DNA from: Acidimicrobiia bacterium
GTDB lineage: Bacteria; Actinomycetota; Acidimicrobiia; Spongiisociales; UBA11373
Assembly (NCBI GenBank): GCA_040878325.1
Contig: JBBDMM010000004.1
Span: forward strand, 1-48,594
DNA length: 48,594 nt
Reading direction: 5' to 3'
This document shows, piece after piece, positions 8,522-40,682 of this stretch. The notes beneath the pieces are model-generated. The model had not been told where the DNA came from, did no database searches, and saw only the letters and a list, made by a program, of their open reading frames with translations. Position numbers and translations under genes: made by a program. The stretch's first letter is position 1. The number at the start of each line of letters is the position of its first letter.

Positions 8522-9217
8522 TCAACCTCTTCGAACCGACACCATTTCGGCGACGATCGACACGGCTATCTCCTCCGGGGTGACCCCTCCGATGCCCAGG
8601 CCGACCGGGCCGTGGATTCGATCGATGTCCTCTTTGGAGAAGCCTTCCGTCGACAAGCGCTCGATCCGGGCGATGTGAGTTCGCATCGATCCGAGGGCCC
8701 CGATGTAGCGGGCGGGGGTACGAAGCAGGGCGGGCATCAGCTCGGCCTCGAACCGTGCCTCGTGCAGCAGTGAGACCACATAGGTCGCCGCGTCAGGGGC
8801 CCACTCCGCAAGCAATTCGCCCGGCCAACCGACCTTCACCGCAATGGCTGCCGGAAAGCGCGACTCCCGGGCAAAGGCGGGCCGGGGGTCACCCACCTGG
8901 ATTTCGAAGCCGACCATGGCAGCCATCGCACACAACGCCTCGGCGATTGGCCCGGCGCCGAACACGAGGAGCCGAGGGGGCGGAGAGATCGCTTCGACAA
9001 AGAACTCCCCCGTCTCGGTGGTGACAGTGCCCGACCGACCCCGGCCTAGAAGGTCGACGGCTCGAACCTTGACTTCGTCGGGGATCTCGAACCTGCCCGC
9101 CAGTACTTCCCCGGACGCGCTCAGCAGCACGCGATCGCCGCTCGCGAGGCCCGTGACCAGCGCGCCCGCCCGGCGATGCTCCAGCAGGTCGCGGGCGGCG
9201 TCGAGCGGGTCGATCAC
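8522..9217 (-). CDS. XdhC C-terminal (Rossmann) domain protein
   Basis: 231 aa. It carries the C-terminal half of XdhC/CoxI: a Rossmann motif (VFGAGPIAEAL) and the closing signature around GPVGLGIGGVTPEEIAVSIVAE. XdhC proteins insert sulfurated molybdenum cofactor into xanthine-dehydrogenase-type hydroxylases. The start is a GTG at 9215-9217 overlapping the upstream gene's stop by 4 nt (GTGA), so translation is coupled. The full-length protein is split over two genes. No molybdenum hydroxylase gene is in the window. Confidence 0.85.
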   Translation of the reverse strand: MIDPLDAARDLLEHRRAGALVTGLASGDRVLLSASGEVLAGRFEIPDEVKVRAVDLLGRGRSGTVTTETGEFFVEAISPPPRLLVFGAGPIAEALCAMAAMVGFEIQVGDPRPAFARESRFPAAIAVKVGWPGELLAEWAPDAATYVVSLLHEARFEAELMPALLRTPARYIGALGSMRTHIARIERLSTEGFSKEDIDRIHGPVGLGIGGVTPEEIAVSIVAEMVSVRRG

Positions 9218-9528
9218 CAACGTTCGACGAGCACCCGGATCGTCCCCCCACATGCCAGACCAACCTCGAAGGCCTCTTCGTCGGTGATGCCGTAGGTGAG
9301 CACCCTGGGTTCTCCGCTCCGAGCTACGTGTTCCGCCTGCGCAATGACGTCGCTCTCGACACAGCCCCCACTCACCGATCCCGCCACCTCTCCATCGCCG
9401 GCCATGAGCATTCGGGATCCCGGCGGACGAGGCGCGGTGCCTTCGACCGAAATCACCGTGGCCGACACGACAGACCTCCCCTCTGCCCGCCACCGATCAC
9501 GGGTGGCGAGATCTGCAAGAAGACTCAT
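9214..9528 (-). CDS. XdhC/CoxI N-terminal domain protein
   Basis: 104 aa, the N-terminal XdhC_CoxI domain alone. Visible signatures are the VEGTAPRPPGSRM loop, SGGCVES and the closing GLACGGTIRVLVE. In full-length XdhC this domain helps bind the molybdenum cofactor. It probably works as a pair with the overlapping downstream gene. The start ATG (9526-9528) is preceded at 6 bases by TACTCT, which decides against the longer in-frame start at 9639. The split is a frame change at an ordinary GTGA overlap, not a Sec codon: reading through the TGA leaves the frame of the second gene. Confidence 0.85.
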   Translation of the reverse strand: MSLLADLATRDRWRAEGRSVVSATVISVEGTAPRPPGSRMLMAGDGEVAGSVSGGCVESDVIAQAEHVARSGEPRVLTYGITDEEAFEVGLACGGTIRVLVERW

Positions 9529-9534
9529 TGCCGA

Positions 9535-9540
9535 AGAGTA
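9535..9540 (-). promoter_or_regulatory. -10 box for split xdhC pair
   Basis: TACTCT on the minus strand, 6 bases before the ATG at 9528. Confidence 0.5.
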
Positions 9541-9626
9541 CGCCTCCGCACGCCGGGAGCCCCCGACAACGCCGATCTCACCCGCCGCCCTAGTCTCTGC
9601 CTCCACCCCTCCCATCGCTGGTTCAA

Positions 9627-11174
9627 ATGCGCCGAGCACCCCACGACCTCTTCGACTCCCGGCACAGCCGACGGTTCAAGCGTCGGCGCAACTGGGGACA
9701 GGTCATTTCACGCTCGCTGATCGGGGCACTGGTTGTGATCGTCCTGGTGGGTGGCTGGGTCATCTTGCGCAACGCCTTCGCCACCGACGAAGTCCACCTT
9801 CGGGTCATCAGCGCCGACCAGCAGCCCATCGCCGGGGCAGTGATCGTCGCCGACAACGGGCGCGAGGCCGTCACTTCCGAGGGAGGACTCGCCACTCTCG
9901 CCTTCGAGGCGCCGGCAACGCTCACCGTCACGGCTCGCGGCCACCAGAGCGCGACCTATCCGGTCGACGTGATCCCACCCCAGGGGGCCATTTCCCTGCA
10001 GATGTACCCACGGGTGTTGCAGGGGCGGGTCACCGACGTCAACGGAATCGGGCTACCGGGAGCGACCGTCGTACTCGGAGACCAGGCGGTCACTGCGGGT
10101 GAGTTTGGCAGCTTCGAGATCGTGGCGGCGGAGCCAGGGATCGTCAGGGCGGAGAAGGCGGCGTGGACTCCGACCGAGGAGGAGTGGGGTGGCCAGCGAA
10201 CCCGCCTCGACCTGGTGCTCGAGCCCTTCATGGTCAAGGGGCTTCGGGTGTTCTACGACGCCGCCGGCGACGCCGAGGCGTTCGCCGAGATACTCCGCAT
10301 CGCCGAGACCACCGCCGTCAACGCTCTCATCTTCGACACCAAAGAGGAGAAGGGTTGGGTGCTCTATGACTCGGCGGTCCCCTTCGCCCGTGAAGCAGGC
10401 GCGATCGAGGTCAGGTACGACGTCCGTGACGTGCTGGCGCAGGCCAAGGAGCGGGGCCTGTACGCCATCACCCGGATCGTGGTGTTCCAGGACCCATACG
10501 CCACCGTCCTCAACGCCGACGCGGCCATCAAGGACAGCGAGACCGGGAGTGCGTGGACGACGGTCCAGGGCTTCGGATGGATGGACCCGACCAACCGCGA
10601 CTCGTGGCAGTACCCGATCGACCTCGCCATCGAGGCGTGCCAGTTGGGTTTCGACGAGATCCAGTTCGACTACGTCCGGTTTCCATCCGATGGCGACATC
10701 TCGACGGCTCGCTACTCGATCGACTCGCCGAATGCCGACACCCGGGTGGAGACCATCGCTGCATTCTTGGGGGAAGCCCGTGACCAGATCCACGAGGAAG
10801 GTTGCGCGGTGTCTGCGGACATCTTCGCAATCGTGCTCTCGGTCTTCGACGACCAGGGCATCGGCCAGCGGGTCGAAGAGCTGTCCTGGACGGTCGATGC
10901 GATCAGCCCGATGATCTACCCCAGCCACTACGGCCCCGGCTGGCTCAACCTCGACAATCCCAACGACTACCCCGCCGAGGTCGTCGGACAGGCCCTCCGG
11001 GCCGGCATGCCCCGCCTCGAAGGTGGGGCGCTGATGCGACCCTGGCTACAGGCCTTCTCGTGGGATGCCTCCCAGGTGCTCGAAAGCATCCTCACCGCCG
11101 AAGAATCGACCAACGGCTGGATGCTGTGGAACTCGATCAGTGACTTCGTGGTGGAGGGGATACCTGAGGAGTGA
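9627..11174 (+). CDS. DUF4015 putative glycoside hydrolase, membrane anchored
   Basis: 515 aa. A basic N-terminus and one TM helix (about 28-47) anchor the protein with its bulk outside the cell. Residues 55-205 hold two carboxypeptidase-regulatory-like beta-sandwich repeats. From about 205 to the end is a TIM-barrel-like DUF4015 domain (putative glycosyl hydrolase): FDTKEEKGWVLYDS, DEIQFDYVRFPSDG and DAISPMIYPSHYGPG are the family blocks, with acidic residues in the DEIQFDYVRFP strand likely catalytic. Its polysaccharide substrate is unknown. A converging gene lies downstream, and the spacer holds paired heptamer arrays. Confidence 0.86.
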   Translation: MRRAPHDLFDSRHSRRFKRRRNWGQVISRSLIGALVVIVLVGGWVILRNAFATDEVHLRVISADQQPIAGAVIVADNGREAVTSEGGLATLAFEAPATLTVTARGHQSATYPVDVIPPQGAISLQMYPRVLQGRVTDVNGIGLPGATVVLGDQAVTAGEFGSFEIVAAEPGIVRAEKAAWTPTEEEWGGQRTRLDLVLEPFMVKGLRVFYDAAGDAEAFAEILRIAETTAVNALIFDTKEEKGWVLYDSAVPFAREAGAIEVRYDVRDVLAQAKERGLYAITRIVVFQDPYATVLNADAAIKDSETGSAWTTVQGFGWMDPTNRDSWQYPIDLAIEACQLGFDEIQFDYVRFPSDGDISTARYSIDSPNADTRVETIAAFLGEARDQIHEEGCAVSADIFAIVLSVFDDQGIGQRVEELSWTVDAISPMIYPSHYGPGWLNLDNPNDYPAEVVGQALRAGMPRLEGGALMRPWLQAFSWDASQVLESILTAEESTNGWMLWNSISDFVVEGIPEE

Positions 11175-11336: not shown

Positions 11337-12152
11337 CTACAGAGGAAGCGTCATTCCTTCGTACGCGGCGTCTACGGGGGTGAAGAGGCGACGGGCCTCG
11401 GCGCGCATCGCATCGATCTCGTCGTCATCGCGGTCGGGATCATGGCTCGTCAATATCAACCGACCCACCCCGGCGGCGCGGGCTGCAGTCGCGGCCTGCT
11501 CCCAATCACTGTGACCCCAGCCCTTCTTGGTCGCCAGGTGCTCCTCGGGGGTGTATTGCGCATCGTGGAACATCACGTCGGCGCCGGACGCGAAATCGGT
11601 GATCGCCTCGTCCAACTCGGCGCTGTCTCCCGCCTCGTGATCCGTGACGATGACGATGGTCCGCTCCGCCTCGAGACGATAGGCCACCGTCATCTGCGGG
11701 TGGCTGACCCCGATGTGAGTCACCTTGACCGGCCCGAGCTTCATCGAATCTTCGAGGAGGTGGATGCTCACTCCCGTCGCCTTGTCGACAGGCACCGGCC
11801 ACCACGGCGGTCTCATCACGTCGCCAAGTGCCTCTGCCGGTGTCTTTGCCTCGCAGGCGGGGCCGTAGAGGTCCACCCGAACGCTCGGGTCGTACACCGC
11901 GCCGAACGTCGGCAAGCCCTGGATGTGGTCCCAGTGGTAGTGGGTCAGGAGGACCGTGAAGCGCTTCGGGCCTTCCTGCTTGCGCACCAGATTCTGCAGG
12001 TTCCGCAGACCGGTGCCGGCGTCGATCACCAGGTAATGCCCGGGTTCGACCTCGACGTAGTAGCAGGTGGTGTTTCCCCCGTACCGCCGGTACTCGGGAC
12101 CCGAGACGCACATTGAGCCGCGGCAACCACCGACCGTGAGGGTGAGGGTCAT
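11337..12152 (-). CDS. MBL-fold metallo-hydrolase
   Basis: 271 aa, complete metallo-beta-lactamase fold with the metal motif THYHWDH (H71, H73, D75, H76) and further conserved positions SHPQMTVAY, TDHE, FHDAQYT and SHDPDRDDD. The overall pattern is closest to the RNase Z / phosphodiesterase-like branch (PhnP, class II cNMP phosphodiesterase), not to beta-lactamases. It lies 76 bp downstream of a cyclic-nucleotide-binding gene on the same strand, which suggests a phosphodiester substrate; that is inference. An alternative is an unspecific MBL hydrolase. Confidence 0.88.
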   Translation of the reverse strand: MTLTLTVGGCRGSMCVSGPEYRRYGGNTTCYYVEVEPGHYLVIDAGTGLRNLQNLVRKQEGPKRFTVLLTHYHWDHIQGLPTFGAVYDPSVRVDLYGPACEAKTPAEALGDVMRPPWWPVPVDKATGVSIHLLEDSMKLGPVKVTHIGVSHPQMTVAYRLEAERTIVIVTDHEAGDSAELDEAITDFASGADVMFHDAQYTPEEHLATKKGWGHSDWEQAATAARAAGVGRLILTSHDPDRDDDEIDAMRAEARRLFTPVDAAYEGMTLPL

Positions 12153-12228
12153 CGTGAGACGCGTCCGGTCTGCTCAGGGCGTGCCTGAGTGCGCAGGGTC
12201 GAACCCGGCGAGAGACATGACCGGGGTT

Positions 12229-12642
12229 TCAGTCGCTCAGCGCCTTCTCGGTACCGCTGAGCCGGGTGGCCAACTCGTTCATGATCTTCATGCCGATATC
12301 GGGATGAGTGCTCAGAATGGCGCGCAAGTCCCACTGGGTGATCACGAGGCACTTTGCCTTCGTGAGTGCGACCACGTCGGCGGTGCGCGGCGTGTCCTCG
12401 AGCAGCAGTGCCATCTCGCCGAAATAGTCCCCGGTCGCGAGATCGGCCACGGCGACGCCGCCCTTGCGAACCTGCGCGGTCCCTTCGAGGAGCAGATAGA
12501 AGCCGAGGCCCGGATCGCCTTCGCGGATGATGACTTCGCCAGGTTCGAATGTCCGCTCCTTTGCGGTCACCATCACGCTCGCCAGCTCCTTTTCGGTGCA
12601 GGCGCTGAACAGCCCCGTCTGCTTCAGCAACTCGATACCCAT
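12229..12642 (-). CDS. Stand-alone cyclic-nucleotide-binding domain protein
   Basis: 137 aa, a single CNB domain. The phosphate-binding cassette GEMALLLEDTPRTADV is at 75-90, with the phosphate-contacting Arg at 86. No HTH or other output domain is fused, so it is a sensor that must act on a partner. The gene lies between an RCK-channel gene upstream and the MBL hydrolase downstream, all on the minus strand, so the channel is the obvious partner candidate. GGAGG precedes the ATG. Ligand preference (cAMP versus cGMP) cannot be read safely. Confidence 0.9.
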   Translation of the reverse strand: MGIELLKQTGLFSACTEKELASVMVTAKERTFEPGEVIIREGDPGLGFYLLLEGTAQVRKGGVAVADLATGDYFGEMALLLEDTPRTADVVALTKAKCLVITQWDLRAILSTHPDIGMKIMNELATRLSGTEKALSD

Positions 12643-12700
12643 AACCCTCCACCTTCTAGTGAGCGCACACGATATCCGAACCGAGCGGGCGAGTTTTCGA

Positions 12701-13756
12701 TCAAGCGTATGGGCCGGTCACCCGGGCCGACTGGAGCGGCAGCAGCGTACCCAACGATTGCGCTACCACGACGACCTGGTCACCGAACGAGAGGGTGAAG
12801 TCACTCGGAGGATTGCTGTAGGTGACGTCACCTCGCGACACGGCCATGAGGGTCGCCTGATGGTCCCGGCGCATCCGTGCCGAAAGCTCATCGATGCTGA
12901 GACCGCAATACTCGTCGGGCAGGATCACCCGGTAGAGCTCGGATCCCTCTCCGCCCGACACAATGTCGGTGACGAACTCACTGAGGCCCGGGTACATCGC
13001 CGTACGGGCGAGGAGCCTCGACGCCAGTCGCGAAGTGACCAGCACCTCATCGACATGGGTCCGTTCGAAGTGGGTCACATGCCTGGGGTTGTTCACCTCG
13101 GCCACCGTACGCACATTCGGGGCCATCGTCTCGATGGCCAGCACGACCAGGATCGATCGCATGTCGGCGGCGTCCGACGCGTCGCTCGGGCAGATGATCG
13201 CGGCCGAGGCGTGAGCGACTCCGGCGCGCTCGAGGTCCTCGGAGTTGGTTGCATCGCCCCGTACGAAGTAGATGCCCTCCCCGGCCGGACTCCTCTCCGA
13301 GTCGTGCAAGAGGACGATCTTCACTCCGTACTCGTCAGACCGGAGCTCTTCGATGAGGTCGCGCGCCGTCGTGTTCCATCCGCAGACCACGATGTGGCCC
13401 TCATATCCCGAAGCACCCATGCCCTGACCCTCCTTCATGAGAAAGTCGATGACCACTCCGACGACGGCGCCCGTAACCGTGACGAGCACTCCGACACCGA
13501 AGATCGCCAGCATCCAATGGATCACCCACCCGGTGGGGGTCGACACGTACGAGATGTCGCCCGCGTCGAGAATCGTCATCACCGACCAGTAGAACGATCG
13601 GCCGAACTCCGAGAGCGTGGCCTCCTTCTCGACCAGTGTCACCCCGATGGTGGCGAGGAGGACGACGATCAGGCTCGTAATTAGGAGCGGCCTGACCACC
13701 TTTCCGCCGAACTGCCCGCGAATCCGCCGGTAGTGCCACCGCAACCGCTTGAACAA
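12701..13756 (-). CDS. Two-TM ion channel with RCK (TrkA) domains, CASTOR/POLLUX-like
   Basis: 351 aa. TM1 is at about 22-43, a pore loop at 55-70, TM2 at about 78-106, then cytosolic Rossmann-type TrkA/RCK domains from 118 (HIVVCGWNTTARDLIEEL). The selectivity filter reads TILDAGDIS where K+ channels have TVGYGD; DAG-type filters are known from CASTOR/POLLUX/DMI1-like channels. The start is a TTG at 13754-13756, with GGAGG seven bases upstream. The longer reading to 13879 merely translates a heptamer array. CNB and MBL genes follow on the same strand at 58 and 76 bp spacing. Ion selectivity is uncertain. Confidence 0.85.
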   Translation of the reverse strand: MFKRLRWHYRRIRGQFGGKVVRPLLITSLIVVLLATIGVTLVEKEATLSEFGRSFYWSVMTILDAGDISYVSTPTGWVIHWMLAIFGVGVLVTVTGAVVGVVIDFLMKEGQGMGASGYEGHIVVCGWNTTARDLIEELRSDEYGVKIVLLHDSERSPAGEGIYFVRGDATNSEDLERAGVAHASAAIICPSDASDAADMRSILVVLAIETMAPNVRTVAEVNNPRHVTHFERTHVDEVLVTSRLASRLLARTAMYPGLSEFVTDIVSGGEGSELYRVILPDEYCGLSIDELSARMRRDHQATLMAVSRGDVTYSNPPSDFTLSFGDQVVVVAQSLGTLLPLQSARVTGPYA

Positions 13757-39872: not shown

Positions 39873-40682
39873 ATGAGGCAGCGCATGCGGCTCCTCGTTG
39901 TCGTTGCCTTCGGGAGCCTCCTCGTCTCGATGGTCGGGATCGGGATCTTCGAGAAGGGCACCAACCCCGAGATCGAGACCTGGTTCGACGTCATCTGGTG
40001 GTGGGTGGTCACCAGCACCACTGTCGGCTATGGCGACATCGTCCCCATTACGGAGGGAGGGCGAATAGTGGCCATCGTGACGATCGTGAGCGGCTTCTTC
40101 GTGTTCACGAACCTGATCGCCATGATCGTCGAGTCGACTCACCGCGTCATCGACCGGCACCGCGCCGGAACCGCGCAGATCCGGTTCGGGGGCCACATCA
40201 TGATTTGCGAGTACACCGCCATCGCCGATGAGCTGGTACAGAGCCTCCCCCGGGTGCCCGAACTCCGTGGTTACCCGGTTGTGATCACAACCGACCTCGT
40301 CGATCGCAACCCCTACCCAGAACACTGGTTCGTGCGTGGCGTCCCCATCAACCCCTCGGTTCTCCGCCAGGCCAACTGCGCCGGCGCCGTGATGGTGTTC
40401 GTGTTCGCCAACCTCCGCTTCGCCGACCCGGACGCGAAAACACTGCACATCGCTTCGCGCGTGCGCGCTCTGAACCCCCATGCGCTGATCGTGGTCGAGA
40501 TCGTCGACCCCCACAGCGAGTTGATGAGGCACGCCGCCCCGGACCTGGTGGTGATTTCAAGCAGGGAGGCGATGCTCCATGTGCTCGACCCGGCGCCGTT
40601 CAACCCGCTGGACCTGCTCGACGAGGAGCGCAAGGCTGATTTCCTCGCCCGGCTCCCTCACCCGCCCCAGCCCGAGGGCTGA
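39873..40682 (+). CDS. Kch-type two-TM potassium channel with TrkA_N/RCK domain
   Basis: 269 aa. Two TM helices (about 5-25 and 62-88) flank a pore loop with the canonical K+ filter TTVGYGD (49-55). A Rossmann-like RCK domain follows from about 107 (GHIMICEYTAIADELVQSL). It is shorter than many Kch homologues but complete. GAGGAGGG lies 12 bases before the ATG. An 8-bp hairpin follows the stop. It contrasts with the atypical DAGD channel at 12701-13756. Confidence 0.93.
   Translation: MRQRMRLLVVVAFGSLLVSMVGIGIFEKGTNPEIETWFDVIWWWVVTSTTVGYGDIVPITEGGRIVAIVTIVSGFFVFTNLIAMIVESTHRVIDRHRAGTAQIRFGGHIMICEYTAIADELVQSLPRVPELRGYPVVITTDLVDRNPYPEHWFVRGVPINPSVLRQANCAGAVMVFVFANLRFADPDAKTLHIASRVRALNPHALIVVEIVDPHSELMRHAAPDLVVISSREAMLHVLDPAPFNPLDLLDEERKADFLARLPHPPQPEG

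Follow-up and report, generated by a model that had tools for sequence, protein, structure and literature searches.

A conserved pair of cyclic-nucleotide-binding and metallo-β-lactamase-fold genes in an Acidimicrobiia family, with an RCK channel gene added in one sub-lineage, as a candidate split phosphodiesterase

What brings together, on one strand, the genes for an RCK-type ion channel, a cyclic-nucleotide-binding (CNB) domain with nothing attached to it, and a hydrolase of the metallo-β-lactamase (MBL) fold? The three lie in that order on the minus strand of contig JBBDMM010000004.1 (assembly GCA_040878325.1) from an Acidimicrobiia bacterium (GTDB lineage Acidimicrobiia; Spongiisociales; UBA11373), within the 48,594-nucleotide stretch referred to here as the window. 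An earlier note on this DNA proposed that they form a cyclic-nucleotide-gated channel assembled from two polypeptides and equipped with its own signal-degrading enzyme. Comparison with related genomes points to the CNB-MBL pair as the conserved core, which looks like a genuine signalling unit, and to the channel as a probable lineage-specific addition. The gene order, strand, coordinates and intergenic gaps given in that note (58 bp between channel and CNB, 76 bp between CNB and MBL) proved exact when the open reading frames (ORFs) were rechecked: the channel gene starts with TTG at 13756 and its stop codon ends at 12701, the CNB gene starts with ATG at 12642 and its stop ends at 12229, and the MBL gene starts with ATG at 12152 and its stop ends at 11337. 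The features of the locus are as follows.

12701..13756, minus strand: RCK channel gene, 351 amino acids (aa), predicted two-transmembrane/P-loop pore and one RCK domain, MthK-like (PF02254, PF22614, MthK match)
13547..13576, minus strand: pore-filter position of the channel, TILDAGDISY where TVGYGD is expected (alignment of 26 channel homologues)
12229..12642, minus strand: stand-alone cyclic-nucleotide-binding protein, 137 aa (PF00027, 75.2 bits; PDB matches; orthologues)
12373..12432, minus strand: phosphate-binding cassette of the CNB protein, GDYFGEMALLLEDTPRTADV (alignment of 11 orthologues)
11337..12152, minus strand: MBL-fold metallohydrolase, 271 aa, of the RNase Z/YhfI/PhnP group, candidate cyclic-nucleotide phosphodiesterase (PF12706, AlphaFold model, fold matches)
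11925..11942, minus strand: metal-binding motif HYHWDH of the MBL protein, inside [T/S]HxHxDH (12 orthologues; motif as defined in excerpts of PMC9293780)

Within the family of the window genome (14 genomes), MBL orthologues were found in 12, the two genomes lacking the gene being G006 (99% complete) and G007 (97% complete). CNB matches at E <= 1e-15 were present in 13 of the 14 and comprise 11 orthologues (52-100% identity, the one in G008 cut by a contig end), a stub in G012 (50 aa at a contig start, 64% identity), and a distant paralogue in G007 (34% identity) that was left out of the counts; N-terminal extensions of some family CNB ORFs were read as open frame in GC-rich DNA and excluded. 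The 12 genomes with a CNB orthologue are also the 12 with an MBL orthologue, and the two genes are linked wherever the contigs allow. In nine genomes they are direct same-strand neighbors with gaps of up to ~80 bp (start positions being uncertain), in G008 one contig ends inside the CNB gene and the MBL gene opens another at base 140, and in G012 and G013, both of genus g9, a 303-aa Fer2 + Guanylate_cyc gene (2Fe-2S ferredoxin and class III cyclase domains) is located exactly between the two. No single polypeptide combining MBL and CNB was found in the family, where the two are separate ORFs at all loci. The sensor-cyclase-MBL string of genus g9 has the composition that a self-contained unit for synthesis, sensing and degradation would be expected to show.

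The intervening cyclase genes of genus g9 lie at L031:4569-5480 and L032:164-1075. By our own reading of the sequence, this cyclase has a Thr before GDG, where we take the usual purine-reading Lys of class III cyclases to sit (the motif positions are assumed), and the product could be unusual.

Channel orthologues, at 67-87% identity to the window channel, are present in six of the 14 family genomes, spanning four genera, and are always first in the string, directly upstream of CNB on the same strand with gaps of ~48-150 bp; adjacency of the trio thus recurs in relatives and is more than chance. Six of the 12 genomes with the CNB-MBL pair have no channel, and in G001 and G013 other genes fill its slot. 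The six carriers group with the non-carrier G001 in one clade of the MBL tree (98/93), and because the carriers fall in this single clade, the channel was probably gained once, with later loss or absence in G001. The earlier note had suggested checking the three-gene order in relatives, and on this check the CNB-MBL part of the order stood and the channel part did not as a general rule, given that outside the six carriers the channel is unlinked; the channel was accordingly rejected as a fixed member of the system.

Beyond the family, an order-level set of 138 genomes, which includes the family's own, contained at the thresholds used the MBL in 63, the channel in 27 and the CNB protein in 38 genomes; in a class-wide draw of 395 genomes, the channel was found in the same 27, all within this order. 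Loci were fetched for 40 of the 41 non-family rows of the window's MBL branch (branch 1; G092 was left out), for 20 of the 27 rows of the lower-scoring branch 2 as a control (excluding the G052 copy near a CNB-patatin gene, L057, and the G010 copy, L037), for 19 of 29 non-family CNB rows and for 20 of 21 non-family channel rows. Counts within 3 kb were taken from a six-frame scan, the gene caller having missed genes in L058, L079 and L094 (no hit) and the MBL of L063. A CNB-domain ORF lies within 3 kb of the branch-1 MBL at 20 of the 40 loci (214.5 kb of flank), in 11 of 22 genera, compared with one of 20 loci of the paralogous branch; at the CNB density of the window's own genome (7 matches in 2.21 Mb), fewer than one would be expected in that length of flank. 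L057 was anchored on its branch-2 MBL, and the branch-1 copy is the closer one to CNB (95 bp), which leaves the count unaffected.

The architectures of these neighboring CNB proteins differ. Genes for CNB-NTE_Ploop-patatin proteins lie beside the MBL on the same strand, either upstream or downstream, in L049, L051, L052, L056, L057, L107, L108 and L118, and CNB-HATPase kinases are encoded on the strand opposite the MBL (checked with Pfam in L054, L065 and L121), the one in L054 beside a response-regulator/pyridine-redox gene. In L053 (G077, from another family), a CNB gene of the stand-alone kind ends 32 bp before the MBL. Outside the family, stand-alone CNB relatives adjoin a gene with a class III cyclase domain in 12 of the 19 fetched loci (L086-L090, L094, L097-L102), with several of the cyclases being cyclase-AAA_16-TPR proteins and Guanylate_cyc confirmed by Pfam in all six loci that were scanned (L086, L088, L089, L097, L099, L102). 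A twin-cyclase ORF, two different MBLs, the CNB-patatin gene and an LtrA-like gene share ~8.5 kb in L057.

The CNB protein consists of the domain only and matches cNMP_binding (PF00027) with 75.2 bits against a cutoff of 27.5. Its best sequence matches in the PDB are cGMP- and cAMP-dependent kinases, and the CNB chains of SthK and MlotiK1 were also matched. The intact phosphate-binding cassette described in the earlier note is present (FGEMALLLEDTPRTA) and is near-invariant in the 11 family orthologues, in which residues Y73 to A78, L80, L81 and D83 to A88 do not vary; we take the motif FGE...R[TS]A to be the phosphate-binding signature. Because the cassette is intact and almost invariant, ligand binding is likely to have been kept. 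The RTA (not RAA) of the cassette presumably corresponds to the cGMP-kinase-like state, which in bacteria is not read as a pointer to either cAMP or cGMP. The genome itself encodes 17 class III cyclase domains over the cutoff, and a ligand is therefore plausible and in principle available.

The MBL protein matches Lactamase_B_2 (PF12706) with 64.5 bits against a cutoff of 27, and its sequence THYHWDH fits [T/S]HXHXDH. Residues H71, H73, D75 and H76, along with H151, D171, H214 and H237, are invariant in the 12 orthologues, and H71, H73, D75, H76, H151, D171 and H237 presumably make up a complete metal site, the residue roles being assumed from the fold. A fold search with the confident AlphaFold model (pLDDT 88.7) placed YhfI nearest among solved structures (Z 28.1, 25% identity over 233 residues), followed by E. 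coli ZipD (26.9), a B. anthracis ELAC homologue (26.8) and RNase Z (26.6), and further down by a PhnP-family diphosphatase (24.2), yeast PDE1 (21.4) and Apyc1 (7u2r, 20.2). In excerpts of the literature, YhfI is reported to prefer cAMP/cGMP (PMC9117128) and is classed as an atypical class-II phosphodiesterase bearing the motif [T/S]HXHXDH (PMC9293780). The window protein resembles three enzymes of this class, B. subtilis YhfI, C. glutamicum CpdA and M. tuberculosis Rv1339, in having the MBL fold with that motif, as far as the excerpts of PMC9293780 and PMC9117128 describe them, and differs in scoring below the cutoff of the curated phosphodiesterase model NF041851, to which a closer relative is encoded elsewhere in its genome. 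The earlier assignment to a phosphodiesterase-like branch is reasonable at the level of the fold only, where YhfI is the nearest structure and RNase Z follows closely, and NF041851 is missed by a wide margin.

We propose, by analogy with the GbpA and GbpB proteins of Dictyostelium, that the CNB-MBL pair is a CNB-regulated MBL phosphodiesterase divided over two genes, and that an RCK channel was added to it, a reading that we favor and to which we would give an even chance. According to excerpts of PMC11988041, GbpA and GbpB belong to the class IIb MBL phosphodiesterases and are switched on by CNB domains in the same chain; the likeness lies in the teaming of an MBL catalytic domain with cyclic-nucleotide-binding domains and in the feedback logic, and the difference in that theirs is one polypeptide with two CNB domains, whereas here there are separate genes, a single CNB domain and a candidate activity. 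In the proposed scheme, the CNB protein would bind a cyclic nucleotide and, acting in trans, stimulate or inhibit the MBL enzyme, the MBL hydrolase would most likely degrade a cyclic mononucleotide, and the signal would thereby limit itself; the RCK channel with its non-K+ filter, added upstream in one sub-lineage that includes the window genome, would probably be co-transcribed with the pair and used in the same response. A scan of the locus gave no promoter-like sites and two terminator-like sites (1.4 expected), and the gaps between the three genes contain neither. The earlier argument that a CNB protein lacking an output domain needs a partner to act on is reasonable, although the best candidate for that partner is the MBL and not the channel, and the part of the proposed three-gene unit that survives is the placement of CNB and MBL in a cyclic-nucleotide pathway, supported by the pairing, the inserted cyclase and the repeated neighbors. 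Consistent linkage of CNB to other partners had been named as a sign against the earlier model, and this is in part what is seen, with the MBL as the constant partner and cyclase genes adjoining CNB in those 12 of 19 non-family loci. No described system with this layout was recognized in literature searches limited to open-licence PMC papers.

Several observations weigh against this proposal. At the level of the enzyme, the RNase Z folds nearly tie with YhfI (Z 26.9 vs 28.1), the window MBL reaches only 64.2-65.6 bits on NF041851, far below the cutoff of 400, and another MBL of the same genome scores higher (141.7 bits). NF041851 is a narrow test, since it had matches in 13 of 14 control genomes, among them B. 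subtilis and C. glutamicum, and exceeded its cutoff in none. A hydrolase under the control of nucleotide sensors, whether CNB or PilZ, also need not itself cleave the nucleotide. At the level of the neighborhood, no CNB lies within 3 kb at 20 of the 40 non-family MBL loci, the count of 20 in 40 is not phylogenetically independent, and at 11 of the 20 CNB-positive loci the CNB domain is found only, or also, in an opposite-strand kinase. A wider scan confirmed 424 MBL loci; the 80 retained come from Acidobacteria, Omnitrophota, Myxococcales, Desulfobacterales and others, and nine of them are family members (L146-L153, L157). Among the 71 non-family loci, 16 had a CNB-domain ORF at any position in the stretch that was fetched, only two of these 16 (L165 and L203) came from records not titled actinobacteria, and no CNB-MBL fusion was found in the 80. 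Within the family, 10 loci share the DUF4015 gene (c6) that lies past the MBL, and the gene order may in part reflect regional synteny.

The channel matches TrkA_N (PF02254) with 60.5 bits against a cutoff of 23.8 and PF22614 with 55.2 bits, and its best sequence match in the PDB is MthK (E 3e-24), in an alignment that covers residues 24-331 and includes the pore, from which two transmembrane segments, a pore loop and one RCK domain are predicted. It shares the two-transmembrane pore and the RCK domain with MthK-type channels and departs from them in lacking TVGYGD and in scoring below the cutoff of Pfam Ion_trans_2. The filter reads TILDAGDISY, in which the K+ signature TxGYGD is missing; none of the 26 aligned homologues has TxG[YF]G, and many of those outside the window's family read TVLGQGD or TVMGQGD. 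DAG stands at the filter in four of the six family channels, and LDAGDIS has D-A-G in common with the filter of CASTOR, a Ca2+-selective RCK channel for which excerpts of PMC6697748 give AD265S(A)GNHA. CASTOR, POLLUX and DMI1 are likewise RCK channels without TVGYG whose D-A/S-G core resembles LDAGDIS (PMC6697748, in excerpts), and the RCK part of the window channel aligns with CASTOR/DMI1 chains; the window channel is, however, shorter, with a single RCK domain, and stays below the cutoff of Castor_Poll_mid (PF06241; 14.4 vs 26.7 bits), so that the likeness appears to be one of resemblance rather than membership. With a filter that has no K+ signature and a CASTOR-like DAG, K+ selectivity is not to be assumed. 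The AlphaFold model of the channel is of low confidence (mean pLDDT 63.5, 6 sequences), and no fold search was run or claim built on it.

How far do other explanations account for the same genes? The two-polypeptide channel of the earlier note, in which the RCK channel would be gated by a docked CNB protein and the signal terminated by the MBL, seems to us rather improbable. It would fit the place of the channel gene directly upstream of CNB in all six carriers and the lack of any PF00027 match on the channel polypeptide, a separate CNB protein supplying what cyclic-nucleotide-gated channels carry in cis, and excerpts of PMC6697748 state that DMI1, a CASTOR-type RCK channel, interacts with CNGC15 channels. 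The bacterial cyclic-nucleotide-gated channels MlotiK1 and SthK are comparable in that pore and CNB domain are coded together, and unlike the window genes in that their CNB domain is part of the channel chain, whereas here it is encoded by itself and the channel carries an RCK domain. What speaks against such gating is that half of the CNB-MBL genomes do without the channel, that the carriers belong to one clade and the adjacency is probably a single event, that none of the 20 fetched channel loci outside the family has a CNB within 3 kb (one of the 20 has a cyclase domain within that distance), and that the RCK domain, of the MthK type, can by itself sense a ligand and gate. A more elaborate version, with a CNB regulator in trans, an RCK channel bearing a CASTOR-like non-K+ (possibly Ca2+-permeable) filter and a phosphodiesterase of its own, the sister-genus pair carrying a cyclase, appears marginally less probable again; it is gene position that argues for a two-polypeptide gated channel, and we regard the idea as doubtful throughout. 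Mere regional synteny, that is, three functionally unrelated genes in a slowly rearranging region, is somewhat less probable still. Conservation in the family extends to the DUF4015, β-eliminating lyase-like (c4) and XdhC genes that surround the cluster, and order inside the family alone is therefore weak evidence of function; the occupation of the channel slot by other genes in G001 and G013 points the same way. The conserved flanking genes are, however, mostly on the opposite strand (a 192-aa same-strand gene after the MBL in three loci, with no Pfam match, is the exception), CNB and MBL are again found paired in other families, where the CNB architectures and the neighbors differ, and in one genus a cyclase separates the two genes.

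The strongest competitor, unlikely as we judge it, yet clearly ahead of the other alternatives, takes the MBL for an output hydrolase, either an RNase Z-like nuclease or some other phosphoesterase, that is switched by CNB here and by a PilZ-like domain in Acidobacteria. It draws on the near tie in the fold search, on the 68.0 bits that the MBL obtains with the RNase Z model TIGR02651, on the better NF041851 match elsewhere in the genome, and on a Nitrospinota relative (L182) in which, by our own reading, the MBL ORF has a kinase-like continuation. In the wider scan, 17 of the 80 MBL ORFs, acidobacterial by title, have a C-terminal extension of ~110 aa, and of five tested for PilZ two were over the cutoff, two under and one without a match; such extensions support a general theme of MBL with nucleotide sensor and equally the output-enzyme alternative. 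MBL ORFs with a PilZ-like C-terminal domain were noted in L194 and L214 (also L166 and L185). An output nuclease is countered by the score on TIGR02651, well short of the cutoff of 292.95, by the absence of the gene from G006 and G007, unlike a core tRNA-processing enzyme, and by the recurrent cyclases and CNB proteins near the MBL, which a phosphodiesterase fits at least equally. RNase Z itself, tried as an identity for the MBL, was weakened by the missed cutoff and by the absence of the gene from 2 of the 14 family genomes; it is not closed, because the window's own genome shows no RNase Z over the curated cutoff.

That genome (G000), in which no RNase Z over the curated cutoff was found, is 98.9% complete. 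A Pycsar-type anti-phage unit, composed of a nucleotide cyclase, a CNB or membrane effector and an Apyc1-like MBL, is by a wide margin the least probable of the explanations considered. Both CNB and the cyclase of G013 have matches among the PADLOC Pycsar models and Apyc1 is among the fold matches of the MBL, but the CNB match involves only the generic CNB portion of PycTIR and similar models, neither the MBL nor the channel matched a PADLOC model, the scanned neighbors of the window locus include neither a cyclase nor a TIR gene, and CNB-MBL sits at a fixed chromosomal place in 12 of the 14 family genomes, unlike patchy defence islands. With no PADLOC match for MBL and channel and only a generic one for CNB, the Pycsar reading was rejected.

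Around the trio, the window has ORFs on the plus strand, on one side a gene for a putative glycosyl hydrolase (DUF4015), which ends at 11174, and on the other a 459-aa ORF starting at ~14202 and without a Pfam match. XdhC, at 8522-9639, is represented by two overlapping ORFs in different frames (XdhC_CoxI at 9217-9639, XdhC_C at 8525-9253); it is split into two ORFs in several relatives as well and forms a single ORF of ~346 aa in genus g9. A second channel-like ORF, at 39885-40682, matches Ion_trans_2 with 60.6 bits.

The MBL branch to which the window protein belongs is spread over many phyla, is not covered here by a curated function model, and in Acidimicrobiia repeatedly accompanies the sensors and makers of cyclic nucleotides, which makes it a direct candidate for phosphodiesterase activity and the CNB-MBL pair a testable two-protein feedback switch. 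Should the channel, too, prove to be controlled in this way, the locus would represent a new way of building a cyclic-nucleotide-regulated channel.

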